NCBI RefSeq assembly: GCF_001553115.1
Contig: NZ_KQ960181.1
Location: forward strand, 35,911-99,910
Length of the DNA: 64,000 nucleotides
DNA from: Aedoeadaptatus coxii
GTDB lineage: Bacteria; Bacillota; Clostridia; Tissierellales; Peptoniphilaceae
Direction of reading: 5' to 3'
Positions 16,677 through 50,709 of this stretch are shown piece by piece; the stretch's first letter is position 1, and every line of letters starts with the position of its first letter. Under the pieces are notes generated by a model that did no database searches, was not told where the DNA came from, and saw only the letters and a list, made by a program, of their open reading frames with translations. The translations under genes and the position numbers were made by a program.

Positions 16677-17234
16677 GTGAAAAAGACTTCTATTCGTAAT
16701 AATTTAAAACTCGCCCGTAATGAAATCTCCCCCGATATTCGAAAAAAAGCCTCGGACGAAATTTTTTCGCGACTACAATCTCTTCCCATTTATAAAAAAA
16801 GCCGTTCCGTTTTTATCTTCGTCTCCATGGGAAGCGAAGTGGAAACCATTCGTTGGATTCCGAAAATGTTAAGAGAGAAAAAGGTTTACGTCCCTCTCGC
16901 TCCGAAGCACGAGCCCATGATCATGACGGAGATCGAAAGTTTAGACGAATTGGAACGGAATGCTCTCGGCATTTTAGAATTGCCCACCGAAAAAATAAGA
17001 GACCGACACCGAGAAAGTGTCGATCTCATTATTACGCCGGGCCTCGCCTTCGACGAGGAAGGTTACCGCATGGGATACGGCGGCGGCTATTACGACCGTT
17101 TTTTTGCCACCCACGCGGGCTATCGCCTTGGCGTAGGATTTCACAATCAGCTCGTAAAAAGCGTGCCTCGCGACGAATACGATTTGCCCGTACACGCCTT
17201 TTTATCGGAAAAGGATTATTTGGTTTTTTCGTAA
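16677..17234 (+). CDS. 5-formyltetrahydrofolate cyclo-ligase
   Basis: 185 residues from a GTG at 16677, chosen because GGAGGG lies 8 bases upstream; the frame opens further upstream but without a ribosome site. The enzyme converts 5-formyl-THF to 5,10-methenyl-THF using ATP. The family block RMGYGGGYYDRFF (about 137-149) and the N-terminal basic stretch KKTSIRNNLKLARNEIS are typical. Convergent with larB, sharing 19 bp at the 3' ends without an obvious terminator. Confidence 0.93.
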   Translation: MKKTSIRNNLKLARNEISPDIRKKASDEIFSRLQSLPIYKKSRSVFIFVSMGSEVETIRWIPKMLREKKVYVPLAPKHEPMIMTEIESLDELERNALGILELPTEKIRDRHRESVDLIITPGLAFDEEGYRMGYGGGYYDRFFATHAGYRLGVGFHNQLVKSVPRDEYDLPVHAFLSEKDYLVFS

Positions 17235-17890
17235 ATTTTCATGACCATCTGCCCTGCCATATAGGCGGCGCCGTACCCGTTGTCGATGTTCACTACCGCC
17301 ACCCCCTCGGCGCAAGAATTGAGCATGGAAAGTAAAGGCGCAACGCCTCCAAAAGCGGCGCCGTAACCTACCGAGGTCGGCACGGCGATAACGGGAGATG
17401 ACACGAGGCCCGCCACGACCGATGGAAGTGCCCCGTCCATGCCGGCGCACACGACGATACTGTCGGCCTGATGTAATAGATCCAGTTTATGGAACAAGCG
17501 ATGAATGCCCGCCACGCCCACATCGTAAACGGTTTCGGTGCCGATACCGAAATAATTCAAAGTACGCACACATTCTTCCGCCACCGGGACGTCCGATGTT
17601 CCCGCCGTTACCACGGCCACTTTCCCAATGGCGGTTTTTTCTTTTTTCGCCATGGCTGTTTTTGAAAGGGGATCGTAATCTAAAAGGTTTTTAATGTCTC
17701 CCAATCCATTAAACCGTTCCTCACTTAAACGCGTGACTAAAACTTCCCCGTCGTGTTCCAACATTTTTTCAATCGCCGCTTTTAAATGATCCGCCGTCTT
17801 GGATTCGCCGAAAATAGTTTCGCCGAATAGGCGGCGTTTTTTGCGCTCAAAATCTGCGGTAATAAATTTCTTCGGCTTTTCACCTTCCAT
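17216..17890 (-). CDS. larB: LarB, nickel-pincer nucleotide cofactor biosynthesis carboxylase
   Basis: 224 residues, AIR-carboxylase (PurE)-like fold. LarB carboxylates nicotinic acid adenine dinucleotide to make the pincer precursor for the nickel cofactor first found in lactate racemase. Family blocks: TAGTSDVPVAEEC, GVAGIHRLF, VCAGMDGALPSVVAGL, AVPTSVGYGAAFGG and VNIDNGYGAAY. The N-terminal region (FGETIFGESKTADHL) is the usual LarB helper segment. Slightly shorter than many LarB. No larA, larC or larE is in the window. The 3' end overlaps the cyclo-ligase gene by 19 bp. Confidence 0.9.
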   Translation of the reverse strand: MEGEKPKKFITADFERKKRRLFGETIFGESKTADHLKAAIEKMLEHDGEVLVTRLSEERFNGLGDIKNLLDYDPLSKTAMAKKEKTAIGKVAVVTAGTSDVPVAEECVRTLNYFGIGTETVYDVGVAGIHRLFHKLDLLHQADSIVVCAGMDGALPSVVAGLVSSPVIAVPTSVGYGAAFGGVAPLLSMLNSCAEGVAVVNIDNGYGAAYMAGQMVMKIYEKTK

Positions 17891-18012
17891 TTTTTCCCTT
17901 TCTATTTTTTAACTCACTGTTATATACTGTTTTGTAACTTTTATTGGGAATAGATCTTAAACTTTCCTAAACCTATTTTATGATATTATGGCAAAAAGGA
18001 TGTGATGATTTC

Positions 18013-18741
18013 GTGTCATTTATCAGTATACGGGATTTATACCGCGTGTACCGCATGGGAAATGAAAAAGTCTATGCTCTTCGCGGCGTCAATTTAGATA
18101 TTGAGCGGGAAGAAATACTCTGCCTACTCGGTACATCGGGCAGCGGAAAATCCACTTTGCTTAATTTAATGGCCGGTCTCGACAAACCTACGAAAGGCGA
18201 GATCGTCATTAACGGAAAAGTACATATGGAAAAACTTTCAGAAGAACGGCTCACGAAATTTCGTCAGTTAAACGTGGGCTTCGTCTTTCAATCTTATAAT
18301 TTAATTCCTACCCTTACCGCCACTGAAAATGTGAGTTTAGGTTTAATTTTTAAAGGCGTCGGCAAGGCGGAACGGGAAGAAAAAGCCCGCGAGATTTTAA
18401 CCCGCGTCGGCCTTGGCGATCGCCTCGAACACAAACCTATGGAAATGAGCGGCGGTCAACAGCAACGGGTTTCCATTGCAAGAGCCTTTGTGGACGCGCC
18501 GCCGATTCTCTTCGCTGACGAACCTACGGGAAATTTAGATACCGCTACGTCGGTGGAGATTATGGAGATGATGTGCGATCTCGCCAAAGAGCACAAACAA
18601 ACTCTCATTATCGTCACCCACGATTTGGAAACGGCAGTATACGCCAACCGCGTCGTGGAGCTGAGGGACGGCATTATTATTCGAGATGAAACGCAAATGG
18701 TAAAAGAGCAGGCCGAGCAATTAAAGCTTGCAGACCATTAA
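18013..18741 (+). CDS. ABC transporter ATP-binding protein, MacB/LolD type
   Basis: About 242 residues from the GTG at 18013. An ATG 33 bases upstream is in frame but lies in a likely promoter stretch. Walker A GTSGSGKSTLLNLMAG, Q-loop FQSYNLIPTL, signature MSGGQQQRVSIARA, Walker B ILFADEPTGNLDT and H-loop VTHDLE are all present. It starts a three-gene unit with an anchored extracellular protein and an FtsX/MacB-type permease. Such mechanotransmission ABC systems move or sense envelope substrates; the substrate is unknown. Confidence 0.9.
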   Translation: MSFISIRDLYRVYRMGNEKVYALRGVNLDIEREEILCLLGTSGSGKSTLLNLMAGLDKPTKGEIVINGKVHMEKLSEERLTKFRQLNVGFVFQSYNLIPTLTATENVSLGLIFKGVGKAEREEKAREILTRVGLGDRLEHKPMEMSGGQQQRVSIARAFVDAPPILFADEPTGNLDTATSVEIMEMMCDLAKEHKQTLIIVTHDLETAVYANRVVELRDGIIIRDETQMVKEQAEQLKLADH

Positions 18742-18758
18742 AATAGTTAGGAGAAACT

Positions 18759-20336
18759 ATGAAGAAGATGAGATCAAAAGTATTGTTAGTCACCGCAGGC
18801 GCTTTGTGCCTTGCCAATGTAGGCGGATTCGTACAGGCGACTCAAAATTCGGGAGGTATGCCCCCTGCCAAAATTACCCAAGGCAGCCATGCCCCTATGT
18901 CCCTTTTAGAATTTTGCGATGTCTCCTGGCCGGAAGCCGCATCCCCGGGAAAAGACATTCCTATTCGTTTTTCCATCGTAAACAACGGAGCGGCTCCGAC
19001 TAAAAATATTTTGATTCGCGCCGAATCCCAGGACTTGGACGCCCTCGTGCCGAAATCGACGAGCACCGTCAATGCGCAGTATTTCGCGCCGAAACAAAAA
19101 GAAACCTATACCTTTAATTTCCGCCTTACATCCAATGCCAAAACAAAAAATTATCCCATTAAATTAACCGCTACTTACGTGGACGCTACTAATGGTGAAA
19201 TACGCGAGTCCACCCAAATCGTGACCGTTATTTCCAGAGGCGGCAACGGTTCCGAAGTTTCCGATGCCGGCAGCTCCTCTCACTCCTCACTGGGAGGCGG
19301 ATCCGGCATGGGCGGTTTTTCCGGCGGCGACATGGGGGATCTCGGCCCCTCTCTCCCCGTAACGGGATCAGGCGGCGCGCCCTCGGGGCAACCTGCTACC
19401 GGCGCCAATACGCCGAAAATCGTTATCGACAGCTACACCATGGATCCTGAAACGGCAAAAGCCGGCGAACCTTTTACCCTCTACTTCAAAATTTTCAACA
19501 CCAATCGAAAAAAACAAGTGCGCAATATTCGCGTCGCTCTTTCAGCCGATGCCGCTGAACCTGTAAGTCTTCCTTCCGGATCGTCTTCCGGTGACGGAGC
19601 TGCCGCAGCCGCTGCAGCTGCTGCATCATCCGGCGGAGGCGATGGCGGCAGCGCCTTTATTCCCGTGGGAAGCAGCAATACCTTCCACATCGAATCCATT
19701 AAACCTCGCCACAGTGCCGAGAAAGAAATTACGTTAACCACTGCACCTGATACGGCGGCAAAAACCTATTCCATTACCGCCACCTTCGAATATGAAGACG
19801 GTAACGGCAATCCTTATACGTCCACGGAAGTCATCGGCATTCCCGTGGTACAAAGCTCCGTATTGGAACCCGGCGATTTAAAAGTGGATAAAGAAGGCTT
19901 CGTCGGCGAAGAAATGCCCTTGTCTTTTGAATTTTTCAACACGGGCAAATCCGTTCTGGCCAATGTCATGGTGAAGCTGCGCGGCAACTTCGATGCCGAC
20001 ACCAATACCTACTTTGCAGGAAGCGTCGCACCTTCCAGCGCCGAAACCTACGACGTCAACATTACGCCGAGAGAAAAAGGTGAGCAAAAAGGCGAGATCG
20101 TCATTTCCTACGACGATTCTACGGGAAAACGTCAGGAATTTATTAAGCCTTTCGTCGTCAATGTCTCCGACGGCGTAGGTAATGGAGACGAAGAAGACGA
20201 AAATGAAAACAAGCGCCCGGCATGGGCCATTCCCCTCGGTCTCTTCTCACTGGCGGCCATTGGCGGCGGCGTTGGATTTTACGTCTATAAAAAACGGAAA
20301 CAAAAAGAGTCGAGCGACGAGGATTTGATGGTCTAA
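18759..20336 (+). CDS. Signal-peptide, C-terminally anchored protein with NEW3/CARDB-like domains, ABC partner
   Basis: 525 residues: signal peptide (1-27, VQA cleavage), then three Ig-like units (about 45-140, 215-345, 365-465) of the type found in COG1361/NPCBM-associated NEW3 domains (IRFSIVNNGAAPTKNILI, FTLYFKIFNTNRKK, LSFEFFNTGKSVLANV). They are separated by Gly/Ser-rich linkers and a run of ten alanines. A C-terminal TM helix (about 485-508) with a lysine/arginine stop follows. It sits between the ATPase and permease genes (17-bp gap; 1-base TAATG overlap), so it probably acts as the extracytoplasmic adaptor of that ABC system. Exact domain family is by eye. Confidence 0.75.
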   Translation: MKKMRSKVLLVTAGALCLANVGGFVQATQNSGGMPPAKITQGSHAPMSLLEFCDVSWPEAASPGKDIPIRFSIVNNGAAPTKNILIRAESQDLDALVPKSTSTVNAQYFAPKQKETYTFNFRLTSNAKTKNYPIKLTATYVDATNGEIRESTQIVTVISRGGNGSEVSDAGSSSHSSLGGGSGMGGFSGGDMGDLGPSLPVTGSGGAPSGQPATGANTPKIVIDSYTMDPETAKAGEPFTLYFKIFNTNRKKQVRNIRVALSADAAEPVSLPSGSSSGDGAAAAAAAAASSGGGDGGSAFIPVGSSNTFHIESIKPRHSAEKEITLTTAPDTAAKTYSITATFEYEDGNGNPYTSTEVIGIPVVQSSVLEPGDLKVDKEGFVGEEMPLSFEFFNTGKSVLANVMVKLRGNFDADTNTYFAGSVAPSSAETYDVNITPREKGEQKGEIVISYDDSTGKRQEFIKPFVVNVSDGVGNGDEEDENENKRPAWAIPLGLFSLAAIGGGVGFYVYKKRKQKESSDEDLMV

Positions 20337-21661
20337 TGAGCTTTAGAGATTTATTGGATATGGCGAGGCGCAATCTCCTCGCCAGAAAACTCCGTACAGG
20401 CCTTACCCTTCTCGGCGTAGTCATCGGATGTGTCTCCATTATTTTAATGATGAGCTTCGGCTACGGCATTACGGAGAACAATCGCCGTATGATGGAAGGC
20501 TTCGGCGATGTTCTCAACATTCAGGTTTCGGAAAACAGTACACAACCCGGCGGAAAAAGTAAGAAGACGCCTAAAAAAATTACCGATCGCTCCATTCAGG
20601 ATTTCAAAAAAATTCCCCACGTCATCGACGTTACGCCGGTCTATAACGCCACTATTTCGGCAAAGTACAGAAACTATACCGGTGACTTTTTGTCCATTAC
20701 CGCCATGAACAAGGAAACCTACTCGACTTTAAATTGGCACACGGATAAAGGCAGCCTCTTTCACGGAAACGGCGAGGGGCAACTCATATTCGGAAGTGAA
20801 ATGGTCGATAGCTTTTACGATCCAAAGGTTACCGATACGGAAATGGACGCCGATAATAAAGACGACGCACCTCCCCTGTTCGAGGCGGCGGGAAAAACAT
20901 TAAGCGTAACCTCTTCCGATATGCCGGATATGGGGTTCGGCGGGCCGTCGGAAACGCCATCAACCAATGGCAAGTCGACGGATTTAAAAGTAGCGGGCGT
21001 CTTAAAAAAGACGAAAAAATCCCAATACGATAACGGCGCATTTATGACCATAGACGGTTATAAAAAATTGGCGGAGACCTTAAACCTTCCCGCGCCGGAT
21101 AAGGGTAGCTACCCGACGGTACAAGTTCGCATCGACGATACGGAAAATGCAGAAGACGTTACCGATGCCATTAAGGATTTAGGCTACGAACCTTCCGGTT
21201 TGCTGGAAGCCATTAAGAGCATGAATCGCGGCATGGCCATCGTCAACGCCATCTTCGCCGGCATCGGTTCCATTTCCTTTATCGTCGCTGCCATCGGTAT
21301 CGCCAACACGATGATCATGTCCATTTACGAACGTACAAAAGAAATCGGCGTCATGAAAGTTATCGGCGCCTCTATTCAGGATATTCAAAAACTCTTTTTA
21401 ACGGAGGCGGCGCTTATCGGTTTTATAGGCGGCGTCATCGGCGTCACATTGAGTCTTATGATGAGCGCAGGATTTAACGCCATAGGCAATCGGTTTGCGC
21501 AAGCACAGGGTGCGGAAGAAGCGATTAAACTTTCCTACATCCCCTTCTGGCTTATTCTCGTCGCCCTCATCTTCTCCACTTTGGTCGGCGTCGCCGCAGG
21601 CTATTTCCCGGCAAAACGCGCCATGAATCTTTCGGCATTGGACGCCATCCGAAGCGATTAA
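20336..21661 (+). CDS. ABC transporter permease, MacB/FtsX family
   Basis: 441 residues. TM1 (about 20-45) is followed by a large extracellular MacB_PCD-like domain (about 50-305) and a C-terminal FtsX domain with three TM helices (about 315-340, 363-390, 405-430). The conserved block MSIYERTKEIGVMKVIGAS precedes TM3 as in MacB. The end PAKRAMNLSALDAIRSD is the usual coupling tail. Starts in the TAATG overlap with the anchored protein, so the two are translationally coupled. Energised by the ATPase at 18013. Confidence 0.92.
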   Translation: MSFRDLLDMARRNLLARKLRTGLTLLGVVIGCVSIILMMSFGYGITENNRRMMEGFGDVLNIQVSENSTQPGGKSKKTPKKITDRSIQDFKKIPHVIDVTPVYNATISAKYRNYTGDFLSITAMNKETYSTLNWHTDKGSLFHGNGEGQLIFGSEMVDSFYDPKVTDTEMDADNKDDAPPLFEAAGKTLSVTSSDMPDMGFGGPSETPSTNGKSTDLKVAGVLKKTKKSQYDNGAFMTIDGYKKLAETLNLPAPDKGSYPTVQVRIDDTENAEDVTDAIKDLGYEPSGLLEAIKSMNRGMAIVNAIFAGIGSISFIVAAIGIANTMIMSIYERTKEIGVMKVIGASIQDIQKLFLTEAALIGFIGGVIGVTLSLMMSAGFNAIGNRFAQAQGAEEAIKLSYIPFWLILVALIFSTLVGVAAGYFPAKRAMNLSALDAIRSD

Positions 21662-21692
21662 AACCCATATAGATTTCCTCTATGTAGCTATG

Positions 21693-21718
21693 TTTTCCAT
21701 TGTAAAATACAATGGAAA
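21693..21718 (+). terminator. Terminator after the ABC unit
   Basis: 12-bp stem TTTTCCATTGTA with its complement around a 2-base loop, 32 bases after the permease stop. The downstream T-run is weak; the stem itself is flanked by T and A runs and could work both ways. Confidence 0.55.
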
Positions 21719-21799
21719 AACGGGAATTTGTCCCGGATGAAGGTGAAATATTTGTTAAAATACTAGTAGTGTTATTTATAGTTCAAGGAGGAAATTTAA

Positions 21800-22576
21800 A
21801 TGAACAAAAAACTGAATATCGTGGCTCTTGCCCTCGTACTTTCCGCAGGTCTTACAGCTTGTGGTCCGAAAGCTGAAAATGCACCGGCAAACAATGCTGC
21901 ACAAAACAACGCTGCTGCAAACGCAAACGCTAATGCAGACAAGGAAAAAGCACCTGCAGCTGAAGTCGGCGAAATGAAGGGTGAAGAACTCGACAAAATT
22001 ATGGAAGATAACAAGGCTAAAGAAAATGTCACCGTTATCGACGTTCGCAGCCCCGAAGAATACAACGAAGGCCACGTTAAATATGCTATTAACATGCCCC
22101 TCGATACTTTTGAACAAGATCTTTCTAAAATTGAAGATTTAAAAGATGCTGAAGTTATTACCATTTGCAACTCCGGCAAGAAGAGCGGCGAAGCTGCTAA
22201 GATCTTAGTAGACAACGGCTTCAAAAACGTTAAAAACGCAGAAGGCGTTAAGAAATTCGACTACACGACCATGACGAAAGTTACCAACGTTCGCGGCGCT
22301 GAATTCGTTGAACTTGCTAAATCCGGCAAATACACCATCATCGACGCTCGTGACGCTAAAGATTTCGAAAAGAGCCACGTAGACGGCGCTATCAATGTTT
22401 TAGTCGACGAATTCGACGCAAAATACAGCGAACTTCCCACCGACAAACCGTTCTTAACCTACTGCTACTCCGGCAACCGCTCCTGGGAAATTGCTTCCAA
22501 GTTAACTGAAAAAGGTCACGAAGCAACCAACTCTTTGGACGGTACCAAAGAATTTGACGGCTTTGAATTAAAGTAA
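21800..22576 (+). CDS. Lipoprotein with two rhodanese domains
   Basis: 258 residues. Lipobox LTAC at Cys 21, followed by an Ala/Asn-rich tether (about 22-55). Rhodanese domain 1 (about 60-155) has VIDVRSPEEYNEGHVK and the active-site loop CNSGKKS. Domain 2 (about 165-258) has IIDARDAKDFEKSHVDGA and CYSGNRS. Both keep the persulfide Cys, so sulfur transfer outside the membrane is possible. AAGGAGG lies 8 bases before the ATG and a terminator follows. Codon choice looks optimised, hinting at high expression. It directly precedes the glycosyltransferase/Fe-S operon. Confidence 0.9.
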   Translation: MNKKLNIVALALVLSAGLTACGPKAENAPANNAAQNNAAANANANADKEKAPAAEVGEMKGEELDKIMEDNKAKENVTVIDVRSPEEYNEGHVKYAINMPLDTFEQDLSKIEDLKDAEVITICNSGKKSGEAAKILVDNGFKNVKNAEGVKKFDYTTMTKVTNVRGAEFVELAKSGKYTIIDARDAKDFEKSHVDGAINVLVDEFDAKYSELPTDKPFLTYCYSGNRSWEIASKLTEKGHEATNSLDGTKEFDGFELK

Positions 22577-22584
22577 ATTAAAAA

Positions 22585-22613
22585 GTGCCTTGTCAAATGA
22601 CAAGGCCTTTTTC
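22585..22613 (+). terminator. Terminator after the rhodanese lipoprotein gene
   Basis: 8-bp stem GCCTTGTC/GACAAGGC, 4-base loop, then CTTTTTC. The next gene starts 15 bases later, so readthrough may feed the following operon. Confidence 0.8.
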
Positions 22614-22627
22614 TTGTGGAGACTTTT

Positions 22628-23359
22628 ATGAATACCATTATCTTTTTCTCCCGCACGCCGGAGCCCGGCCACGGAAAGACGAGGCTCCGCAAAGATGTTC
22701 CCGACGAAAAAGTCGATGCCATTGTCGCCTATCTCTACGAAAAAATGTATGGTACTTTGGCGAACACCCCTTTTCGCCTCGTCATCCACTACGACGGCAA
22801 GGTTCCCGCAAAAAATGTGCCTTCCTTTTTACAGGAAGGACGCGATCTCGGGGATAAAATGGCTCGCTCCCTGCAACGGGAATTACCCCATGGCCCTGCC
22901 CTTTTAATCGGCTCGGATTTAATGGGCGTCGACGAAGATTACATTGCAGATGCTCTCCGCGCTTTGGAAAAAAAGGACATCGTCTTGGGTCCTGCCCACG
23001 ACGGCGGCTACGGCCTCGTCGGCATGACGCATTTCGTAGATATTTTTTCGGGGATCACGTACAGCCAAGAGGATGTACTGGAAAACACCGTAAAAAAAGC
23101 GAAAGCCCAAGGCAAATCCGTCGCCCTTCTCGACACCATTCGCGACATCGACGATATTAGCGACCTTGCCGCGGAAGTTTTGGAATGCCCCATTGCATCT
23201 TTTTCGGAAAATGAAACGTGTTTTCTGTTTTGCAGCAACGACGGAAAAGAGTTAAAGGTATTTAAAAGAGATCCTAACAATACATCGGGACTACTCCATC
23301 CGACGATTATGATGCCATTCTTTCATTTCATTTCCAATAACGTAAAGGAGACATTATGA
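22628..23359 (+). CDS. TIGR04282/DUF2064-type glycosyltransferase (arsenosugar-associated transferase 1)
   Basis: 243 residues from the ATG at 22628 (GTGGAG 6 bases upstream). GT-A nucleotidyl/glycosyltransferase fold: the N-terminal RTPEPGHGKTRLRKDV is the family nucleotide-binding block, LLIGSDLMGVDEDYI holds the DxD-like segment, and LGPAHDGGYGLVGM is the classic DUF2064 signature. In other bacteria this family pairs with the TIGR04283 transferase near arsenosugar rSAM genes; its partner lies at 24687. It overlaps the next gene by 4 bases. Actual sugar and acceptor are unknown. Confidence 0.85.
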   Translation: MNTIIFFSRTPEPGHGKTRLRKDVPDEKVDAIVAYLYEKMYGTLANTPFRLVIHYDGKVPAKNVPSFLQEGRDLGDKMARSLQRELPHGPALLIGSDLMGVDEDYIADALRALEKKDIVLGPAHDGGYGLVGMTHFVDIFSGITYSQEDVLENTVKKAKAQGKSVALLDTIRDIDDISDLAAEVLECPIASFSENETCFLFCSNDGKELKVFKRDPNNTSGLLHPTIMMPFFHFISNNVKETL

Positions 23360-24054
23360 AGCTAAACAAAAAGATCATAACCATAGGCATAATTATCGCC
23401 TGCTTACTCGTCTATTTTTTCGTTCCCTCGGTAAATCAGGGAATTAACCGCGCCATACGCGTCCTCACAACCGAAGGCATCGACGGTATCGCCGCCTACA
23501 TTCGCAGCTTCGGCGTCTACGCCGTCATCGTATCCTTCCTTCTAATGGTCCTCCAATCCATTATTTCGCCGATTCCCGCATTTTTTATTACCCTGGCAAA
23601 CTCCGCCATTTTCGGCTGGGTTAACGGCGCCATTCTCTCCTGGTCTTCCGCCATGGCAGGTGCCGCCCTTTGCTTTTATATTTCCAGAATTTTAGGGCGG
23701 GACGTCGCCGAAAAATTTACCGGCAAAGGTATGCTCGAAACCGTAGATAAATTTTTCGAAAATTACGGAAAATACGCCATCTTAATCGCCCGCCTCCTCC
23801 CCTTTATGAGTTTCGACTTGGTTAGCTACGCCGCCGGTTTAACGGGCATGAGCTTCCTCGCATTTTTCGTCGCCACAGGCCTCGGTCAACTTCCGGCGAC
23901 CATCGTCTATTCCTATGTAGGCGGTACCCTTACAGGCGGCGCACAAAAACTAATGATGGGCTTGCTTATTCTATTTGCCCTCTCCATTGCCATTTTTGTA
24001 GGCAAGAAGGTTTACAATGACAGACGCAACAAAAAAGCAAACCAAATGGATTAA
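23356..24054 (+). CDS. VTT-domain (TVP38/TMEM64, DedA-like) membrane protein 1
   Basis: 232 residues, about six hydrophobic segments. The SNARE-associated/VTT core is recognisable: FFITLANSAIFGWVNGAILSW, GRDVAEKFTGKG, and LIARLLPFMSFDLVSYAAGL, where the FDLVSYAAGLTGMSFLAF block is the conserved re-entrant loop. TVP38/DedA proteins are membrane scramblase or transport candidates. ATGA overlap with the preceding glycosyltransferase and a 38-bp overlap with a second VTT gene show a tight operon. Confidence 0.88.
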   Translation: MKLNKKIITIGIIIACLLVYFFVPSVNQGINRAIRVLTTEGIDGIAAYIRSFGVYAVIVSFLLMVLQSIISPIPAFFITLANSAIFGWVNGAILSWSSAMAGAALCFYISRILGRDVAEKFTGKGMLETVDKFFENYGKYAILIARLLPFMSFDLVSYAAGLTGMSFLAFFVATGLGQLPATIVYSYVGGTLTGGAQKLMMGLLILFALSIAIFVGKKVYNDRRNKKANQMD

Positions 24055-24694
24055 AATTCTTACGGCTATACTTTTGGCGGCAATCTTTTTTGTCGCCTTT
24101 AAGTATATTAAGGACTATTTTACGGAAGAACGGATTCAATCGATTTTAAACGACGCCGGACTTTGGGCGCCTGCCATTTACATCTTGCTTTGGGCGACGC
24201 TTCCTATTTTTCTATTTCCCGTTCCCCTTCTCGTCGTACCCAGCGGCTATATTTTCGGAACGACCATGGGCGTCGTCTATACGCTTATCGGCTGCGCGGT
24301 GAATATTGTCATAATGTATTACCTTGCGGCGAAACTGGCGCGGAAACCGATTAGCGAATTGGTGGAAAAAAAGAGCAACGATAAAATCAAGAAGATTTTC
24401 TTTCATCCCTCGGGCACGAGTCAAGGCGTATTTTTTATCTTCCGATTGATTCCCCTGGTCTCTTACAATCTCATTAACTACATGGCGGGTATTTTACAGA
24501 TTCAATTCCTGCCCTACTTTGTGTTAAGTTTAGTGGGCATTACGCCGGGGATCTTCGCCTTTATTTATTTAGGAGAGCAAATCCACGATCCGAGCACACC
24601 GGAATTTAAGCTGGCGATTTTCTTCCTCTTACTTTTAACGGCGCTATCCCTCATTCTCCTGAAGATTTATAATAAGAGGCATCGGAATGATTAG
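24017..24694 (+). CDS. VTT-domain (TVP38/TMEM64) membrane protein 2
   Basis: 225 residues, also five or six hydrophobic segments. VTT core: FPVPLLVVPSGYIFGTTMGV, then FIFRLIPLVSYNLINYMAG with the conserved Arg-x-x-Pro and NxxNY-like loop. It is clearly diverged from the first copy, so a tandem pair that may heterodimerise is more likely than a recent duplication. The start has AAGAAGG about 7 bases upstream, inside the previous gene (38-bp overlap). Confidence 0.87.
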   Translation: MTDATKKQTKWIKILTAILLAAIFFVAFKYIKDYFTEERIQSILNDAGLWAPAIYILLWATLPIFLFPVPLLVVPSGYIFGTTMGVVYTLIGCAVNIVIMYYLAAKLARKPISELVEKKSNDKIKKIFFHPSGTSQGVFFIFRLIPLVSYNLINYMAGILQIQFLPYFVLSLVGITPGIFAFIYLGEQIHDPSTPEFKLAIFFLLLLTALSLILLKIYNKRHRND

Positions 24695-25334
24695 TATCAT
24701 CATCCCCTGTTACAACGAAATCAAAAACATTGATCGACTGCAAAAAGCCTTAGATGCTCTGGAGGGCGAAAGGGAAATTCTCTTTACAGACGGCGGCTCT
24801 ACCGACGGAAGTTTTGAGCGCATTCGCTACCCTAAGATCCAAAAGGCGAAGGGCCGCGGCGCACAAATGGATCTGGCCGTAGAACAGACAAAAGGGGATG
24901 TGCTTTGGTTTTTACACGGAGACACCTTCCCCGAAAAAACCGCCCTTCGATCCATCGAAGAGAGCCGGGCGGAGTGGGGCTGTTTCAAGCTGCGCTTCCG
25001 CTCGAAGAAAGCCATGATGCGCATCGTCGCTTTTAATTCCGATAACCGCGTGCGCTTTCGCCACATCGCTTTCGGCGATCAGGGTATTTTTATTCGCCGA
25101 GCGCTTTACGACGACATCGGCGGCTTTCGCCATATTCCTCTTATGGAAGATTACGATCTTTCCATTCGATTAAAAGAAAAAGGCTACAAGCCCGCCCTTT
25201 TAAAAAACACACTCTTTACAGACGCCAGACGCTTTGAAGAGAACGGCATTTGGCACACGATTTTTCATATGCAACGCTTGCAACGCGCCTTCCGCAAAGG
25301 CGTGGATCCTGCGATTTTAGCGAAAGAATATTAA
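24687..25334 (+). CDS. TIGR04283-type family 2 glycosyltransferase (arsenosugar-associated transferase 2)
   Basis: 215 residues. GT2 fold: ISIIIPCYNEIKNIDRL at the N-terminus, LFTDGGSTDGS, the TIGR04283 block KGRGAQMDLAVEQTKGDVLWF, then LHGDTFPEK (DxD-like) and a C-terminal GFRHIPLMEDYDLSIRLKEKG acceptor motif. Together with the DUF2064 protein it reproduces the transferase 1/transferase 2 pair. It overlaps the preceding VTT gene by 8 bp; the next gene follows after 15 bp. Confidence 0.87.
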   Translation: MISIIIPCYNEIKNIDRLQKALDALEGEREILFTDGGSTDGSFERIRYPKIQKAKGRGAQMDLAVEQTKGDVLWFLHGDTFPEKTALRSIEESRAEWGCFKLRFRSKKAMMRIVAFNSDNRVRFRHIAFGDQGIFIRRALYDDIGGFRHIPLMEDYDLSIRLKEKGYKPALLKNTLFTDARRFEENGIWHTIFHMQRLQRAFRKGVDPAILAKEY

Positions 25335-25349
25335 GGAAAGGAGTTCATT

Positions 25350-26294
25350 ATGATCTCATACGCATTGGATTCCTGCATCCACTGCGGCAAATGCAAAAAG
25401 GTCTGCCCTTTTTTAGCACACTACGATATGGACCTGTCCGAATTTGCCACGCGGCCCGAACTGAAAGGGGAATGTTACCTCTGCGATAATTGCAAACGCA
25501 CTTGCCCCAAGAATATTTCGGGGCGCGGTATCGCCATGGAACACAGAAAAAACAAGCCCCTCCCGAGCCTTAAAGTTCGTCTGCAAAAAAATCCCTATCT
25601 TCTGCGCAATGTTCAGAAAAAAAACACGAAGAGTCTACTCTATCTCGGCTGCAACTACCCCGGGCAGTTTCCGGAAACTTGCAAAAAGCTTATTGGGATT
25701 TGCAGGGAAGACGGAATTGATTTTTCCGTCGATTGTTGTAAAAAGCCGGTGGCTCAAACGGGAGTCGAACTTTCAAACGATTCTATTTTCGATCACGTAA
25801 AGGATCGCGGCATCGAGCGCCTTATTTGCTGCTGCCCCAATTGCTACAATATGATGAAAGGGCGGAGCGACATCGAGGTTATCTCCATTTTTGAGTATTT
25901 ACACGAGCGCGGGCTTTTAAACGAACTGCCCCAAGAAAATATCCCTCTCTATATTCCCTGCGGCGATCGGGAACATCTGGAGTTTTTTAAATACATCGAG
26001 CCCCATTTAAAAAGCTATCACAAGGAATATAATAAAATTCACTGCTGCGGCCTCGGCGGTGGCGGAAAACATACTCCTGAAGTAGCGGAAGAAGTAGAGA
26101 AAAAATTCCAAGCCCTCCACGAAACCTACGGCGAAATCTGGACTTATTGCGCCAGCTGCTCCATCGCCTTTCAGCGATACAACATGGATCACATCGTCAA
26201 TATCCTCTCCGCTTTCTTAGGTGTAAACGAGGCGCCGTCTACAGAGTACATGAAAAATGTGCTGGCCTTTAGGAGGCTTCCCCATGACATCTAA
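25350..26294 (+). CDS. HdrD-like Fe-S protein: two 4Fe-4S motifs and two CCG domains
   Basis: 314 residues, cytoplasmic. The N-terminal ferredoxin part has two CX2CX2CX3CP motifs (CIHCGKCKKVCP, about 9-20; CYLCDNCKRTCP, about 44-55). Then come two cysteine-rich CCG domains: first GCNYPG...CCKKP...CPNC, second PCGDRE...CCGLGGGGK...CASC. This is the architecture of HdrD/GlpC/LutA-type redox subunits, which hold 4Fe-4S clusters and a noncubane cluster handling thiols or disulfides. AAGGAG precedes the ATG. Electron donor and substrate are unknown; context links it to the glycosyltransferase/VTT operon. Confidence 0.88.
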   Translation: MISYALDSCIHCGKCKKVCPFLAHYDMDLSEFATRPELKGECYLCDNCKRTCPKNISGRGIAMEHRKNKPLPSLKVRLQKNPYLLRNVQKKNTKSLLYLGCNYPGQFPETCKKLIGICREDGIDFSVDCCKKPVAQTGVELSNDSIFDHVKDRGIERLICCCPNCYNMMKGRSDIEVISIFEYLHERGLLNELPQENIPLYIPCGDREHLEFFKYIEPHLKSYHKEYNKIHCCGLGGGGKHTPEVAEEVEKKFQALHETYGEIWTYCASCSIAFQRYNMDHIVNILSAFLGVNEAPSTEYMKNVLAFRRLPHDI

Positions 26295-26673
26295 AGAAAA
26301 AAACTGCGCGCAAAACGTACTGGGTGCTTTCGGAAAAGAATTCGGTTTGAGCGAGGACATCACCGACCGCATGGCCGCTCCCTTCGGCGGCGCAAGATAC
26401 AGCGGCGAAACCTGCGGTTGCGTTAGCGCCGCCACCATGGTGCTCGGGCTGAAATACGGCGACGACGAAACATATTTAAGCGAAAAAGTCGCTTCCTTCG
26501 ACAAAGCCTTTAAAGAAAAACATCGCTCCACACAATGCAGAGAGATTTTAGGCTACGACTTTTCCAAACCCGGCGAACTCGCGAAAGCTTACGAAAGCGG
26601 CTCCATCGCCGAAAATTGCCCGAAATGCGTTTCCGACAGCATCGCCATTTTACAGAAATTACTGGATTCATAA
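26284..26673 (+). CDS. C_GCAxxG_C_C family protein (putative redox protein)
   Basis: 129 residues from the ATG at 26284 with AGGAGG 7 bases upstream, overlapping the Fe-S gene by 11 bp. The family pattern is complete: NCAQNVLGAFGKEFGL, MAAPFGGARYSGETCGCVSAATMVLG, STQCREILGYDF and ENCPKCVSDSIAIL. Six Cys are positioned as in the TIGR01909 family, often found with membrane or Fe-S redox partners. No biochemical role is established. Last gene of the operon. Confidence 0.87.
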   Translation: MTSKEKNCAQNVLGAFGKEFGLSEDITDRMAAPFGGARYSGETCGCVSAATMVLGLKYGDDETYLSEKVASFDKAFKEKHRSTQCREILGYDFSKPGELAKAYESGSIAENCPKCVSDSIAILQKLLDS

Positions 26674-26738
26674 CCTCACCGGTATTAAAATTTCCCTTTG
26701 AATCCGGCGAAGTATTTCCTTCGAAACCAAGCAAATAA

Positions 26739-26800
26739 AAAAATAACCCCCGTTTCCGGAGGTTATCTCGAGCTCACCCTCAGGCTGGGCTTTTTATTTT
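26739..26800. terminator. Two back-to-back terminators between convergent operons
   Basis: One imperfect stem (ATAACC-c-CCG with CGG-a-GGTTAT, 26743-26766) is followed on the minus strand by a run of T and serves the FMN-binding gene. A second short stem (GCTCA/TGGGC, 26772-26790) is followed on the plus strand by TTTTTATTTT and serves the C_GCAxxG operon. Confidence 0.6.
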
Positions 26801-27138
26801 GCTCGTTCCAAAGCTTTTTCAACGGCATCTTTAATGCCTTTCGAAGTTTCCGTAGCCCCTGCTATGGAATCGATGTACGTGGTATTTTTCTTCACCATGG
26901 CGCCGGGCAAGGTATTTAATGCTTCCTGTACTTGTGGCACTTGTTCTACATATTCGCCGTGGTCCACCACTTCCACCGACACCATGTTTCCGCCGGCGAC
27001 AGTAACTTCCACTTTTATAGGCGTCTCTTTTGAATAGCCCATTGCCTCGCCGCGAAACACGCCGTCGCGATAAACTGTTTTGCCGCTACAAGCCGTGAGA
27101 AAAAAGAGCGCTACCGTGGGAAAAATCCATTTTTTCAT
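26794..27138 (-). CDS. FMN-binding domain lipoprotein
   Basis: 114 residues: lipobox LTAC (Cys 17) and a single FMN_bind domain. The flavinylation-type motif AGATETSKG is visible (about 93-101), where the Thr in this position carries FMN covalently in family members after ApbE action. No apbE gene is in the window. It overlaps the end of the transketolase reading frame by 4 bp and so shares its transcript. A role in extracytosolic electron transfer is inferred from the family. Confidence 0.85.
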   Translation of the reverse strand: MKKWIFPTVALFFLTACSGKTVYRDGVFRGEAMGYSKETPIKVEVTVAGGNMVSVEVVDHGEYVEQVPQVQEALNTLPGAMVKKNTTYIDSIAGATETSKGIKDAVEKALERAK

Positions 27139-29123
27139 CGGCGATTTAAATACTCTTTTATAGCTATCGTAACGCCTTCAGTCGTCAAACCGAAGGTTTC
27201 AAAAACTTCTTTCGCATTGCCGCTGGCGCCGAAAGTGTCGATGCCGAGAACCATTCCGTCGAGGCCCACGTAGCGGTACCAGCTCATAGTCGCGCCCGCT
27301 TCCATGGCCACGCGGTGGCGAACATCTTTTGGAAGAACGGCTTCTTTGTAATCCTTCGATTGCAGTTCAAATAATTCCTGAGAGGGCATACTGACGACGC
27401 GAACGCCAAAGGATTCCGTTTCAATGGCTTTTGCCGCATCCAACGCCAATTGCACTTCACTACCCGATGCAATGAGGATGAGTTCGAGTTTCGCCTCTTC
27501 TTTTTTAAGAATATAGCCGCCTTTTAAAGCGTCTTTCGAACTTCCATCGAGTTCAGGCACGGTTTGACGAGTCAAAATTAAGGATACGGGCTTGTCTTTG
27601 GAATGCATGGCCGTGTACCACGCCGCCGCCACTTCCGTGGAATCCGCCGGGCGGATGGTAATGGCGTTGGGAATACTGCGAAGCATGGTTAAGTGTTCGA
27701 TAGGTTGGTGTGTCGGCCCGTCTTCGCCGACGCCGATGCTGTCGTGGGTCAAAATATAGGATACGGGAAGACCCATTAAAGCGGCCAGGCGAATTTGTGG
27801 CTTCATGTAGTCGCTGAAGACGAGGAAAGTAGCGCCGTACGAACGGAATCCGCCGTGTAAATAAATACCGTTGACGATGGCGGCCATGGCATGTTCCCGC
27901 ACGCCGAAATTAATATTGGCGCCTTCGCGATTTTTCACGCTATATTGGCCGGCGCCTTTTATGTCGCTCTTGTTGGAGGGCGCCAAGTCGGCACTACCGC
28001 CGAATAAGTTGCCCATACCTGCTGCTACCCGTTGCAATATTTCGTGGGAGCTTGCGCGCGTCGCCATGTCTTTTTCCACAGGCTTCCAGAAGCTTTCCTC
28101 GTCCATAAAGGAAAGATCTTGCGCTTCTGTATCGTAATGGGCGATGAAAGCTTTATATTTTTCGGGATAGCTTTCTTTGTAGCGCCCTTCCATTTCTTTC
28201 CACGCGTCGTAGTTTTTCTTTTTCTCGGCGAGAATCTCGTTCACGTATTCTTTTACTTCGTCGGACACCGTAAAAGGCGCTACATCGTAGCCCAAGGCTT
28301 TTTTCGTCGCCAGGTTTTTCTCTTCTCCCAAGGGTGCGCCGTGAACGCCGGCATTTCCTGCGAGAGGAGAACCGTACCCGATGACCGTTTTAATTTCGAT
28401 CATCGTCGGCTTCTTCGTTTCCTCTTTCGCCTCTTCAATGGCCTTTGAAATGGCGTCTACGTCGGTGCCGTCTTCCACCGTCAGCACTTGCCAACCTAAT
28501 GCGCGGTAACGATCGGCAATGCTCTCCTTAAAGGAAAGGGAAGTATCCCCTTCGATGGTAATATTATTGGAATCGTAAAGGACGATCAATTTTCCCAGTT
28601 CCAGCGTGCCGGCAATGGAGGAGGCTTCGTTGCTGATGCCTTCCATTAAATCTCCGTCGCCGCAAAGAACGTAAGTATGGTGATCGATGAGATTCATGCC
28701 TTCTTCGTTATAGAGAGCGGCCAATCGCGTTTCCGCCATGGCAAAGCCTACAGCTGTGGAAATGCCGGCACCTAAAGGACCCGTCGTCGTTTCCACCCAA
28801 TCGGTGTGGCCGTATTCCGGATGCCCCGGCGTTTTAGAATGTAATTGTCTGAAATTTTTTAGATCCTCCGCTTCGAGGCCGAGGCCGAAAACGTGGAAAA
28901 GTGAATATAATAAGGCACTTCCGTGGCCGGCACTTAAAATAAAACGATCTCGATTTACCCAGTTTCGATCCGATTTTTCAAATTGTAAGGCTCCCGACCA
29001 AAGGGCCCACGCCATAGGTGCCGCACCCAGTGGCAAACCCGGGTGTCCGGAGTTGGCTGCATCGATTTGATCGATGGAAAGGGCGCGTAAAGTGTTAACC
29101 GCTAATTGCTTTTTAGTTTGCAT
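27135..29123 (-). CDS. tkt: Transketolase
   Basis: 662 residues, full length. Thiamine-diphosphate enzyme of the non-oxidative pentose phosphate pathway. Blocks seen: SGHPGLPLGAAPMAWALW near the N-terminus, ThDP motif GDGDLMEGISNEA...NN (about 154-185), and the pyrimidine-domain FGVREHAMAAIVNGI and DSIGVGEDGPTHQPIE in the middle. The gene overlaps both neighbours (11 bp with the TagA-like gene, 4 bp with the FMN-binding gene), so it is embedded in the envelope polysaccharide transcript. Confidence 0.97.
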   Translation of the reverse strand: MQTKKQLAVNTLRALSIDQIDAANSGHPGLPLGAAPMAWALWSGALQFEKSDRNWVNRDRFILSAGHGSALLYSLFHVFGLGLEAEDLKNFRQLHSKTPGHPEYGHTDWVETTTGPLGAGISTAVGFAMAETRLAALYNEEGMNLIDHHTYVLCGDGDLMEGISNEASSIAGTLELGKLIVLYDSNNITIEGDTSLSFKESIADRYRALGWQVLTVEDGTDVDAISKAIEEAKEETKKPTMIEIKTVIGYGSPLAGNAGVHGAPLGEEKNLATKKALGYDVAPFTVSDEVKEYVNEILAEKKKNYDAWKEMEGRYKESYPEKYKAFIAHYDTEAQDLSFMDEESFWKPVEKDMATRASSHEILQRVAAGMGNLFGGSADLAPSNKSDIKGAGQYSVKNREGANINFGVREHAMAAIVNGIYLHGGFRSYGATFLVFSDYMKPQIRLAALMGLPVSYILTHDSIGVGEDGPTHQPIEHLTMLRSIPNAITIRPADSTEVAAAWYTAMHSKDKPVSLILTRQTVPELDGSSKDALKGGYILKKEEAKLELILIASGSEVQLALDAAKAIETESFGVRVVSMPSQELFELQSKDYKEAVLPKDVRHRVAMEAGATMSWYRYVGLDGMVLGIDTFGASGNAKEVFETFGLTTEGVTIAIKEYLNRR

Positions 29124-29928
29124 GAGATCCTCCTTTGGTCGTCTTCACGACGGAAACCGATTGGCCGTCGCGCCATACTGTCCATAAAAATTTGGGAATG
29201 ACGAGCTGTCTCCGTAATCGAGACGGGTTTTTTAATAAGCGATAAAACCATTCTAAGTTTAACTTAATGAAAATATCCGGCGCACGTTTCGCCTTTCCGG
29301 CTAATACATCTAAGACGCCGCCGTTTCCGATGGCGATTTTCAAATGGGAAAATTTCTCCCGATTATTCAAGATAAACTGTTCCTGTTTGGGAAAGCCGAG
29401 GCCTACAAATAAAATGTCCGCTTCCGATACGTTGATGGCGTCGATCACTGCCTTTTCCTCTTCGTGGTTCTCGAATCCTCGATGAGCGCCTTTAAAATAA
29501 CCGTGATGCACGCCGGCCACAATCTTGCCGTAAACAGCCTCCACTTCTTCTCTCGCCTTTTCTCCTACGCCGGGTTCGGCGCCTAAGAAAAATACTTTCT
29601 TGTCTTCTTCTTTCGCCAGTTCCAACATGGCCATGGAAAGATCGAAGCCCGTTACCCGCTCTCTCAGGGGATGTTGCTTCATCTTGGATCCCATAATAAG
29701 GCCGATGCCGTCGGCTACGACGAGGTCGGCGGAATTAATCGCTTCCGCCAGTTGCTCATCGTCGCGACACGCCATGACGATTTCCGTATTGGGGGTGAAG
29801 AGGGTGTGGAGTCTTTCCTCCCCGAGCATTTCTCTTAAAATTGCCTTCCCTTCGTCGAAGGAAATATTATCCACGACGGTGTTGAAGATTTTAATTTTCT
29901 CTCTACTTTTCCAAGAGTTCGAAGACAT
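29113..29928 (-). CDS. WecG/TagA/CpsF family glycosyltransferase
   Basis: About 271 residues from the ATG at 29928, 10 bases after AGGAGG; upstream in-frame starts are too close to that site. Family GT26 transfers N-acetylmannosamine-type sugars to undecaprenyl-PP-GlcNAc in teichoic acid or secondary wall polysaccharide linkage units. Blocks: FTPNTEIVMACRDDEQLAEA, VVADGIGLIMGSK (catalytic Asp region), VFFLGAEPGVGEKA, and ADILFVGLGFPKQEQF. Overlaps csaB by 26 bp. Confidence 0.93.
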   Translation of the reverse strand: MSSNSWKSREKIKIFNTVVDNISFDEGKAILREMLGEERLHTLFTPNTEIVMACRDDEQLAEAINSADLVVADGIGLIMGSKMKQHPLRERVTGFDLSMAMLELAKEEDKKVFFLGAEPGVGEKAREEVEAVYGKIVAGVHHGYFKGAHRGFENHEEEKAVIDAINVSEADILFVGLGFPKQEQFILNNREKFSHLKIAIGNGGVLDVLAGKAKRAPDIFIKLNLEWFYRLLKNPSRLRRQLVIPKFLWTVWRDGQSVSVVKTTKGGSHAN

Positions 29929-31003
29929 GATGAACATTCCTCCTACTCTTTTCCCGCAGATCATCGTGCATGAGCGTCAACTTTTTCCGCGCACCGTCTC
30001 CGTCGTTAAAGGTGGCGACGACGGCGTTTAAAAGTTTTTTCTCATCCATTCCTTCCGACTCAATATCCGAAGGAATGCCCAAAGCTTCTAATTGGGATTT
30101 TACTTTCGGGTCGTACACCACGCCCACCACCGGCGTCTTGGATGTGACGGCATAAATCAATGCGTGGAGCCGCATGGCGATCATGACATCGCATAGACCG
30201 ATAATGCCTTCCATTTCTTCCACGGCGTAATTTCCCGCCAACACGTGGCCGTGCTCTTTGTGTACCATGGCCGCCTTGATGCTGTCGGCGAAATGTTTAT
30301 CTTCCGGATAATGTAAAGGCGTAAAAAGTGTGTCGATGCCACATTCTTCGTAAACGCGATCCGCCACATAGGCCATTTTTTTTGCAAGGGCAGGCGCCTT
30401 CTTCCATTGGCGTACGGCGACGCCCAAAAAGCGGCGATCCACGGGGATACGCTCTTCCCTTAAAAGGGCGCGAGCCGCCCCTTCGCCGATACCTTCGATG
30501 CCGTAAACGGGATCGGCGGTAACTTCCATTTCAGGTTTCGTGACGCCGATATCCCGCAATACCTCGAGAGAATCGTCGTCTCGAAGGGTAATAAAGTCCA
30601 CGCCGTTTAAAACTTTTGCGGTGAGTTTTCGATTAACGGTTTTATGAATAGGGCCCACGCCGTTGGCATAAACGTAGATTTTTTTCTTCATTCGTTTTGC
30701 CAAGGCCATAACGCCGAGATAGTAATAAAGGGAACGGGACGATGTTTCATCTTGAAGTAAAGACCCACCCCCGCTAATCAGAAGATCGGCGGATTTAAGC
30801 GCCTTTTTGACCGAGCCGTAATGGAAACGCTGGGTGGCGTTCACATTGTAAAGTCGTCTCGTTCGCGCCGGATCGTAGGAAAGGACGTTTAACTGAATCG
30901 TCGGATCGATGGCGCGGATGTCGTTTACGATGGCGTGCAAAATGGCGTCGTCGCCGCTGTTGTCGAAGCCGTAATAGCCGCTAAATAATACTTTCTTCGC
31001 CAT
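29903..31003 (-). CDS. csaB: Polysaccharide pyruvyl transferase CsaB
   Basis: 366 residues from the ATG at 31003 (AAAGGA 9 bases upstream). Adds pyruvate ketal groups to secondary cell-wall polysaccharide, the ligand of SLH domains. Characteristic blocks: VLFSGYYGFDNSGDDAIL at the N-terminus, LISGGGSLLQDETSSRS, IYVYANGVGPI, and AMRLHALIYAV near the C-terminus. It overlaps the O-antigen-ligase-like gene by 23 bp and the TagA-like gene by 26 bp. Together with the SLH protein at 901 it gives a complete anchoring pair in this window. Confidence 0.93.
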   Translation of the reverse strand: MAKKVLFSGYYGFDNSGDDAILHAIVNDIRAIDPTIQLNVLSYDPARTRRLYNVNATQRFHYGSVKKALKSADLLISGGGSLLQDETSSRSLYYYLGVMALAKRMKKKIYVYANGVGPIHKTVNRKLTAKVLNGVDFITLRDDDSLEVLRDIGVTKPEMEVTADPVYGIEGIGEGAARALLREERIPVDRRFLGVAVRQWKKAPALAKKMAYVADRVYEECGIDTLFTPLHYPEDKHFADSIKAAMVHKEHGHVLAGNYAVEEMEGIIGLCDVMIAMRLHALIYAVTSKTPVVGVVYDPKVKSQLEALGIPSDIESEGMDEKKLLNAVVATFNDGDGARKKLTLMHDDLREKSRRNVHHVFELLEK

Positions 31004-47835: not shown

Positions 47836-48030
47836 TTGCTTGCCGGTATTTACTATTTTGAGATTCATTGTGATACAGTTAATGAATTGGGCACACGCTG
47901 CACTACCTTTATGGAAATGCAGGAGGAATTGAAAAAATCACTTTCAGCACAGTGGAAGATGACGCAGAAACGTGTGGAAAGGGTGGTAGCTCTTACGCAT
48001 GATTTAAAAATACCAGGGTGCTTTTCAAGA
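47836..48030 (+). pseudogene. Sensor histidine kinase fragment (HAMP-HisKA)
   Basis: About 60 codons: TTFMEMQEELKKSLSAQWKM looks like the end of a HAMP linker and RVERVVALTHDLK is the HisKA phosphoacceptor region (His in THDLK). The catalytic ATPase domain is gone; the frame runs into the end of the opposite-strand tetR gene. No transmembrane part survives. Confidence 0.5.
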
Positions 48031-48582: not shown

Positions 48583-48634
48583 TTTGTTCCTCCTGTCACA
48601 CTTTTTCGGGATTGTAGCACTTGAACTGCTTCCA

Positions 48635-48659
48635 TTGACAATCATATCTTTTTGATTGT
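48635..48659. promoter_or_regulatory. Palindromic operator overlapping divergent promoters
   Basis: ACAATCA, 8-base spacer, TGATTGT: perfect 7-bp arms (48638-48659). A plus-strand TTGACA (48635-48640) overlaps the left arm, and the minus-strand reading gives TTGTCA. Its position between tetR and the HXXEE gene makes it the likely TetR binding site. Confidence 0.6.
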
Positions 48660-48711
48660 ACTGTAAATCAGAAGGTGACACAAGTGAGACAGATGGAGGA
48701 GGCTCAATTTT

Positions 48712-49233: not shown

Positions 49234-49271
49234 TTACCCACAAATAGCAAATTTTTAAGGAGGTCTTTTGC

Positions 49272-50453: not shown

Positions 50454-50658
50454 ATCCATTTCAAGAATCTCATGTACATCTGTCGTGCAGGGTATAAGGC
50501 CTTTGTGCGTTAACAACTATATTACCGATGCCAATTAGCCTTGCTATTGTTCGAGACTCTTCTAGTATATTACCGTCTTTGATACAATCAAACTTTGCCT
50601 TTGAACTCCTAAACTATTCCTCTAAACCCTGAAACTTTTCATTTCAGGCATAGAAAAA
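50454..50658. other. Non-coding or eroded stretch downstream of the hydrolase
   Basis: About 205 bases without an intact ORF. On the minus strand a 40-codon open stretch (DGNILEESRTIARLIGIGN) exists but matches nothing I recognise; it may be debris of another element gene. Confidence 0.35.
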
Positions 50659-50677: not shown

Positions 50678-50709
50678 AAAATGAGCATATCATTTTATAA
50701 AGCTGTGAT

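Follow-up and report, generated by a model that had tools for sequence, protein, structure and literature searches.

Two protein families that NCBIfam counts in its arsenosugar set, TIGR04282 and TIGR04283, are encoded in one compact operon of Aedoeadaptatus coxii, in a stretch of DNA that holds neither a radical S-adenosylmethionine (SAM) enzyme nor arsM, which raises the question of what this operon makes and from what. We analyzed it within a window of 64,000 nucleotides (RefSeq assembly GCF_001553115.1, contig NZ_KQ960181.1, positions 35,911 to 99,910 of the forward strand). Open reading frames (ORFs) read on the sequence, together with family models, give seven genes in the order RHOD-GT82-VTT1-VTT2-GT83-FES-CGA, all on the forward strand: a lipoprotein with two rhodanese domains (RHOD, 21800-22576), a TIGR04282/DUF2064 protein (GT82, 22628-23359, alternative GTG start at 22616), two VTT-domain membrane proteins recognized by family-model matches (VTT1, 23356-24054; VTT2, 24017-24694), a TIGR04283 protein, probably a glycosyltransferase of the GT2 type (GT83, 24687-25334), a protein with an N-terminal 4Fe-4S dicluster and two CCG motifs (FES, 25350-26294), and a C_GCAxxG_C_C family redox protein (CGA, 26284-26673). 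A preliminary description of this DNA had noted the missing radical-SAM and arsM genes, and had taken the unit to be independent of arsenic enzymes unless an arsS-type gene elsewhere explained the pair. The absence holds within the window, but not for the genome, which encodes an unlinked ArsS and an ArsM-like protein and so provides just such a gene. Most likely, arsenic-modifying enzymes whose genes lie outside the window, in other parts of this genome, feed the unit.

Arsenic enzymes on other contigs and in related genomes

The ArsS of A. coxii passes the TIGR04167 cut-off of 300 with 345.2 bits and lies on a contig other than that of the window (G000:C4:111696-112562; G numbers denote genomes, with G000 the genome of A. 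coxii itself, C numbers contigs, and L numbers fetched loci). It has a CxxxCxxC motif, a DUF3641 region, and a Cys-rich C-terminus, and its neighbors are, by reading, mostly housekeeping-like. An ArsM-like protein of 351 amino acids, encoded on contig C12, carries FYGCGSP, SNCVINL, and GECIGGA, which we take to be motifs typical of ArsM. The operon, ArsS, and the ArsM-like gene are thus found on three separate contigs; in the single-contig genome G002, the TIGR04283, ArsS, and ArsM matches fall at approximately 1009, 12, and 1103 kb.

Next, we evaluated the distribution of these genes in sets of 8 genus, 130 family, and 348 phylum genomes (the last including A. coxii), with genomes that encode TIGR04283 over its cut-off designated as carriers. 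Within the genus, the same six of eight genomes have TIGR04283 and ArsS, though unlinked. The other two, G001 and G005, lack any match to TIGR04283 as well as any ArsM match at E<=1e-30, and neither has ArsS over cut-off. This co-variation, along with the genes on the other contigs, speaks against the proposed independence from arsenic enzymes in this genome.

The association extends to the family, where 41 of the 130 genomes are carriers and ArsS is found in 28 of them against 1 of the 89 others (p=2e-17; the genomes are related, so that this and later p-values are guides only and overstate independence). The sole ArsS-encoding non-carrier, G068, has a TIGR04283 match below the cut-off (170.6 bits), i.e., 28 of the 29 family genomes with ArsS have TIGR04283 over cut-off. 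When tallied by hand at the genus level, ArsS is found in 11 of 16 carrier genera and in none of the 23 others, and its co-variation with the core recurs inside genera g1, g2, and g34. ArsM-like matches (E<=1e-30) follow a similar distribution, with 31 of 41 carriers against 5 of 89 other genomes, and are found in 26 of the 29 ArsS genomes; the long ArsM type (~355 amino acids, one partial match counted) is seen in 14 genomes, all with ArsS. In some family members these genes are also physically linked: ArsS lies inside the operon or directly downstream in, e.g., L043, L045, L056, and L061, and ArsM-like genes adjoin ArsS in G019, G020, and G031. Across the phylum, TIGR04283 is detected in 26 of 348 genomes at E<=1e-35 (23 over cut-off), and the 10 genomes with ArsS over cut-off all fall within these 26, 8 of them being over the TIGR04283 cut-off.

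Two side observations concern these arsenic genes. A possible MarR-type regulator can be read upstream of the A. coxii ArsS (L075:8993-9511, on contig C4), on the same strand and with one small ORF between. Many family ArsS genes, and many ArsM-like genes of ~260 amino acids, contain one in-frame TGA, likely encoding selenocysteine.

Architecture and conservation of the operon

The preliminary description had proposed a compact six-gene operon directly behind a double-rhodanese lipoprotein, and both order and spacing are right on the sequence: GT82 and VTT1 overlap by 4 bp, VTT1 and VTT2 by 38 bp, and VTT2 and GT83 by 8 bp, a 15-bp gap separates GT83 from FES, and FES overlaps CGA by 11 bp. 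The CGA start is an ATG at 26284 preceded by AGGAGG, whereas the mechanical ORF begins at 26257. Membership in the two TIGR families is likewise borne out by the curated cut-offs, with 143.6 bits for GT82 (TIGR04282, cut-off 134) and 226.7 bits for GT83 (TIGR04283, cut-off 182). Pfam cut-offs are passed by the VTT proteins (92.9 and 73.0 bits), DUF2064 (84.7), rhodanese (116.4), and CGA (C_GCAxxG_C_C PF09719, 92.2 bits, gathering cut-off 27); TIGR01909 is narrowly missed by CGA (44.6 bits, cut-off 47.4). For FES, the Pfam CCG model (26.9 bits, cut-off 20.6) covers the second CCG motif, and the first was read from Cys spacing. Eighteen Cys are invariant in all 38 aligned family sequences and fit two 4Fe-4S and two CCG motifs, so that, judged from sequence, HdrD-like is a fair label.

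To describe the neighborhood in relatives, we compiled 41 family loci, i.e., the window plus stretches around the TIGR04283 gene in the 40 other carriers, some cut short where the contig stops, which leaves 4 kb for L037. Final counts were obtained through a six-frame profile search, which also served for GC-rich loci where longest-ORF gene calling failed. GT83 and FES are found in all 41 loci, GT82 in 39, two or more VTT genes in 37, RHOD in 32, and CGA in 27, and the strict order RHOD-GT82-VTT-VTT-GT83-FES is kept in 19, which agrees with the conservation that had been anticipated. In the genus member G005, homologs of window positions 20336-21661 and 26794-27138 adjoin, with no gene of the RHOD-to-CGA block between them. 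Since the whole block is missing between the same neighbors, the seven genes, RHOD included, are one conserved unit gained or lost together. The flanking region of G001 differs, and its fetched stretch holds no operon gene.

A terminator-like hairpin with a T-run (22587-22606, forward strand) separates RHOD from the remaining genes and folds at this site in all six genus loci, window included. As the scanned region yields many such sites (17, against a shuffle mean of 7.1), the argument rests on this conservation. Because of its position before GT82, RHOD may mostly be transcribed alone, as its own transcript with read-through. The lipobox Cys and the second active-site Cys of RHOD are kept in 28 of 28 aligned relatives. 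Four of these 28 (L058, L066, L068, and L069) have lost the first-domain active-site Cys, and each of these loci has a separate YnjE-like double rhodanese.

Predicted roles of the core proteins

The preliminary description had counted two glycosyltransferases. For GT83 this assignment stands, while GT82 is probably not one: its predicted model (mean predicted local distance difference test score, pLDDT, 83.7, weak from about residue 181) best matches 3cgx, also its sole sequence match in the PDB, followed by 2i5e (a probable nucleotidyltransferase, which we take to be CofC), the 3-phosphoglycerate guanylyltransferase 7p97, Rv2983 (presumably FbiD), MEP cytidylyltransferase, KdsB, and GlmU. Ranks 2-19 are mostly described as nucleotidyltransferases, a few having a locus name only. 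GT82 also has a conserved G-x-x-K-T-R-L stretch resembling an NTP loop, and it misses the cut-off of the CofC model TIGR03552 (22.8 against 105 bits). The nucleotidyltransferase-like fold, along with the kinase fusions of relatives described below, suggests that GT82 is probably a sugar-activating, CofC-like nucleotidyltransferase, contrary to the database term glycosyltransferase. We also considered whether its C-terminal tail is a remnant of such a fused kinase, and rejected this: the tails of nine relatives all score below 0 bits, and for the window tail no match was reported.

The GT83 model (pLDDT 96.8) matches the glycosyltransferases WrtF, TarS, chondroitin polymerase, and ArnC; D79 and D155 are invariant, and E154 is nearly or fully so. 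On this modeled fold, GT83 is probably a GT2 enzyme that transfers the sugar activated by GT82. No solved structure was related in sequence to GT83 (E<=0.001) or VTT1 (E<=0.01). A flippase role of the VTT proteins may be suggested by analogy with their wider family; assignment of the pair to UptA (NF052604) was rejected, with 41.1 and 28.5 bits against a cut-off of 250. In relatives, pyridine nucleotide-disulfide oxidoreductases are fused to an FES homolog (L126) and to a VTT domain, the latter gene (L158:6813-8966) lying between ArsS and TIGR04283, and these fusions may link the VTT step with thiol redox.

A proposed arsenosugar-type pathway

Taken together, we regard it as somewhat better than an even chance that the seven genes carry out the later part of an arsenosugar-type pathway that has ArsM and ArsS, encoded elsewhere in the genome, as its front end. 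This proposal rests on gene presence, conservation, block loss, co-occurrence, and folds, from which we infer every chemical step as well as the element handled. ArsM would methylate arsenite, and ArsS would couple the dimethylarsenic to the 5'-deoxyadenosyl group of SAM, yielding an arsenic-bearing nucleoside from which adenine would then leave, the step that follows ArsS in the logic of the pathway. GT82 may turn the resulting pentose phosphate into a nucleotide sugar, and GT83 may pass the sugar to an acceptor, perhaps a lipid. The VTT pair could move this product or hold it in the membrane, FES and CGA could be a source or a sensor of thiol reducing power, and the RHOD lipoprotein may act outside on sulfane sulfur. 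For the front end, the parts of the literature available to us report that ArsS acts together with ArsM in the first steps of arsenosugar formation in Synechocystis (PMC8552651) and that a radical-SAM enzyme adenosylates arsenic in the arsenosugar pathway (PMC12159101).

Several observations weigh against such a role. TIGR04283 occurs without ArsS in 13 of the 41 family carriers and 16 of the 26 phylum carriers, so the core is not bound to arsenic. FES does not belong to this core throughout, as it is present in only 6 of 25 phylum loci outside the family (against 22 for GT82 and 20 for VTT), and in G053 and G054, which have the operon as well as ArsS, the locus is without VTT genes. Of the best 80 of 270 named loci, where many contigs are short and absence means little, only 32 have a full-length GT82 domain, and the GT82 fold list includes, from rank 20, the glycosyltransferase mannosylglycerate synthase. 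As for the front end, the ArsM-like protein of A. coxii falls short of the cut-off of every ArsM model shown, with 187.7-188.4 bits against 263 for the nearest, NF008823, and G006 has the operon and ArsS, yet no ArsM match at E<=1e-30. Finally, the searches gave no enzyme that could remove adenine, the nucleoside hydrolase subfamily (E<=1e-25) and the kinase (E<=1e-30) described below having no match in any of the eight genus genomes; phosphorylases were not searched.

Possible alternative front ends in carriers lacking ArsS

Other candidate feeding genes accompany the core in most of these ArsS-less relatives. In 18 of 41 family loci, GT82 and an APH-type kinase domain form one fusion protein (Pfam identity of the domain from L053). 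A profile of this kinase (E<=1e-30) detects 27 of the 130 family genomes, all carriers, namely each of the 13 that lack ArsS and 14 of the 28 that have it (p=0.0013), the kinases of G061 and G062 lying outside the fetched operon stretches. Because all 13 ArsS-less carriers have the kinase, every family carrier has one or the other (41/41). The exclusion between front ends is not absolute, given the 14 ArsS-positive carriers with a kinase and, in the phylum, L173, which combines a BioB-like gene with a partial ArsS match. A nucleoside hydrolase subfamily (E<=1e-25) is similarly biased, with 16 of 130 genomes, 15 of them carriers, and 10 of 13 carriers without ArsS against 5 of 28 with it (p=0.0005). 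The same holds for a YnjB-type binding protein (NF008633 over cut-off), found in 13 of 130 genomes, all carriers, and in 11 of 13 against 2 of 28 (p=1.7e-6); the non-carriers G023 and G028 have sub-cut-off matches. Importer and hydrolase genes are grouped in L236-L240 and L242, and in L237-L240 they lie on a contig other than the operon's or >300 kb away.

Among the 25 fetched phylum loci, ArsS is found in 8, with one more of these genomes, G151, encoding it on another contig; the kinase is found in 6, a BioB-like radical-SAM gene in 4, another radical-SAM gene in 4, and none of these in 2. Of the best 80 of 270 named loci, 20 have ArsS and 2 the kinase, and each of the two other radical-SAM types occurs once. 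In several of the longer loci among these 80, e.g., the cyanobacterial L213 and L225, the stretch has GT83 and VTT genes without GT82 or ArsS.

The core thus seems to draw its sugar from two interchangeable nucleoside sources. In the family relatives without ArsS, it would probably be fed by the APH-type kinase, mostly along with a YnjBCD-type importer and the nucleoside hydrolase. Both front ends would then deliver a nucleoside-derived pentose, in one case from SAM and in the other imported, hydrolyzed, and phosphorylated, with GT82 and GT83 shared. An even more general reading, which we hold to be evenly balanced, is that the nucleotidyltransferase-GT2-VTT core serves generally to convert a nucleoside-derived pentose into a glycoside associated with the membrane. 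Different lineages would supply it through exchangeable front ends, namely ArsM/ArsS, a nucleoside hydrolase and an APH-type kinase behind a YnjBCD-type importer, or further radical-SAM enzymes. If so, the arsenosugar label of the databases would cover a single branch, and the product of ArsS-less carriers would be a glycoside yet to be discovered, built from a nucleoside that is taken up. This may be why many genomes have "arsenosugar" genes without ArsS, and it offers a lead on the cargo of YnjBCD-type importers. The idea of a core wider than arsenosugars, as the preliminary description had suggested, holds in relatives, whereas independence from arsenic enzymes finds no support in the A. 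coxii genome itself.

The radical-SAM genes of the phylum loci are of two kinds: a BioB-like gene near TIGR04282/TIGR04283 with no ArsS found (L134, L137, L139, and L143), and a family of ~290 amino acids near TIGR04283 (L129, where it is split, L133, L138, and L141). The L133 protein misses the cut-off of each of the 25 NCBIfam models shown out of 62. A 3.6-kb contig of the non-carrier G026 (C5, L241) holds a nucleoside hydrolase and a RHOD-like match, and may represent an incomplete carrier.

Alternative explanations

The high frequency of ArsS-less carriers may also indicate that in every carrier, A. coxii included, the product of the core is a glycoside without arsenic, built from a nucleoside that is salvaged or modified, with ArsS acting on another element or only borrowing the machinery. 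This would be consistent with the kinase, YnjB, and hydrolase genes of the 13 ArsS-less family carriers (in 13, 11, and 10, respectively) and with the other radical-SAM genes where ArsS is absent (8 of 25 phylum loci). However, TIGR04283 co-varies exactly with ArsS in the genus of A. coxii (6/8), where kinase, hydrolase, and YnjB are each without a match at the thresholds used (0/8), and nearly all family genomes with ArsS have ArsM-like genes. We consider this explanation unlikely.

Two further explanations place another element at the center. A sulfur- or thiol-redox-linked sugar translocation unrelated to arsenic, in which the rhodanese, CCG, and C_GCAxxG proteins play the leading part, would account for FES in all 41 family loci and RHOD in 32 of them, and for the L158 fusion between ArsS and TIGR04283. 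It is improbable given the ArsS and ArsM-like gene of the same genome and the strong co-occurrence with ArsS, and across 25 phylum loci the sugar genes are more constant than the redox partner (GT82 in 22, FES in 6). A selenium pathway, in which the operon handles a selenosugar or a selenium-dependent redox step, is suggested by selD, which 39 of the 41 carriers have, compared with 47 of the 89 other genomes, and by the in-frame TGA of many family ArsS genes. This enrichment is moderate, selD is widespread without the operon, and the link could be explained by selenocysteine use in ArsS itself. Moreover, G006 (95% complete) has the operon and ArsS with no selD match at E<=1e-30, and the other selD-less carrier, G083, is only 65% complete. 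Selenium was accordingly rejected as the main theme, and a selenium pathway appears very improbable.

Relation to known systems

GT82, GT83, and the unlinked ArsS all pass curated cut-offs of the NCBIfam arsenosugar set (TIGR04167, TIGR04282, TIGR04283, and NF038099), which the A. coxii system resembles. It differs in that ArsS and ArsM are unlinked, the ArsM-like protein fails NF038099 (103.2 bits, cut-off 400), and the unit further includes the VTT pair and the genes of HdrD-like and double-rhodanese type. The same two front-end enzyme types operate in Synechocystis, for which the portion of the account available to us covers initial steps and names no sugar-transfer gene (PMC8552651). In the literature examined, partly as excerpts, the finishing of arsenosugars after ArsS has no gene assignment, and our data suggest TIGR04282 for activation and TIGR04283 for transfer. 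Full-text literature searches returned no description of the operon among the matches listed. We regard the operon as a new member of a database-annotated set, and the two-source layout as probably the new part. From genome size and gene content, our impression is of an anaerobe of the Bacillota whose family includes host-associated species; arsenosugar synthesis would be unexpected there.

The CofC-like nucleotidyltransferases (2i5e, 7p97, Rv2983) share their fold and NTP-loop-like stretch with GT82, whose TIGR03552 score is nevertheless far below cut-off. Kinases and nucleotidyltransferases also pair in systems of the LicA-LicC type, and the APH-type kinase-GT82 fusions of relatives would follow the same two-step activation logic, although the kinase was not found in the genus of A. 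coxii and a sugar is proposed instead of choline. YnjB is part of the ynjABCDEF operon of Escherichia coli, and the NF008633 protein was detected both in the E. coli control and in ArsS-less carriers; of the controls, Synechococcus elongatus alone passes the TIGR04283 cut-off, so that E. coli is no carrier. RHOD resembles the rhodanese family NF045521 (rhoda_near_glyco), whose name suggests that NCBI noticed rhodaneses near glycosyltransferases, but it has two domains, and membership was rejected at 90.5 bits against a cut-off of 145.

No Rfam element reached its gathering score within window positions 17000-30000. Elsewhere in the window, positions 48001-52000 have a guanine-plus-cytosine (GC) fraction of 0.366, with ORFs at 0.35-0.39, against 0.47-0.49 in the adjoining 4-kb bins, and are possibly an acquired segment.

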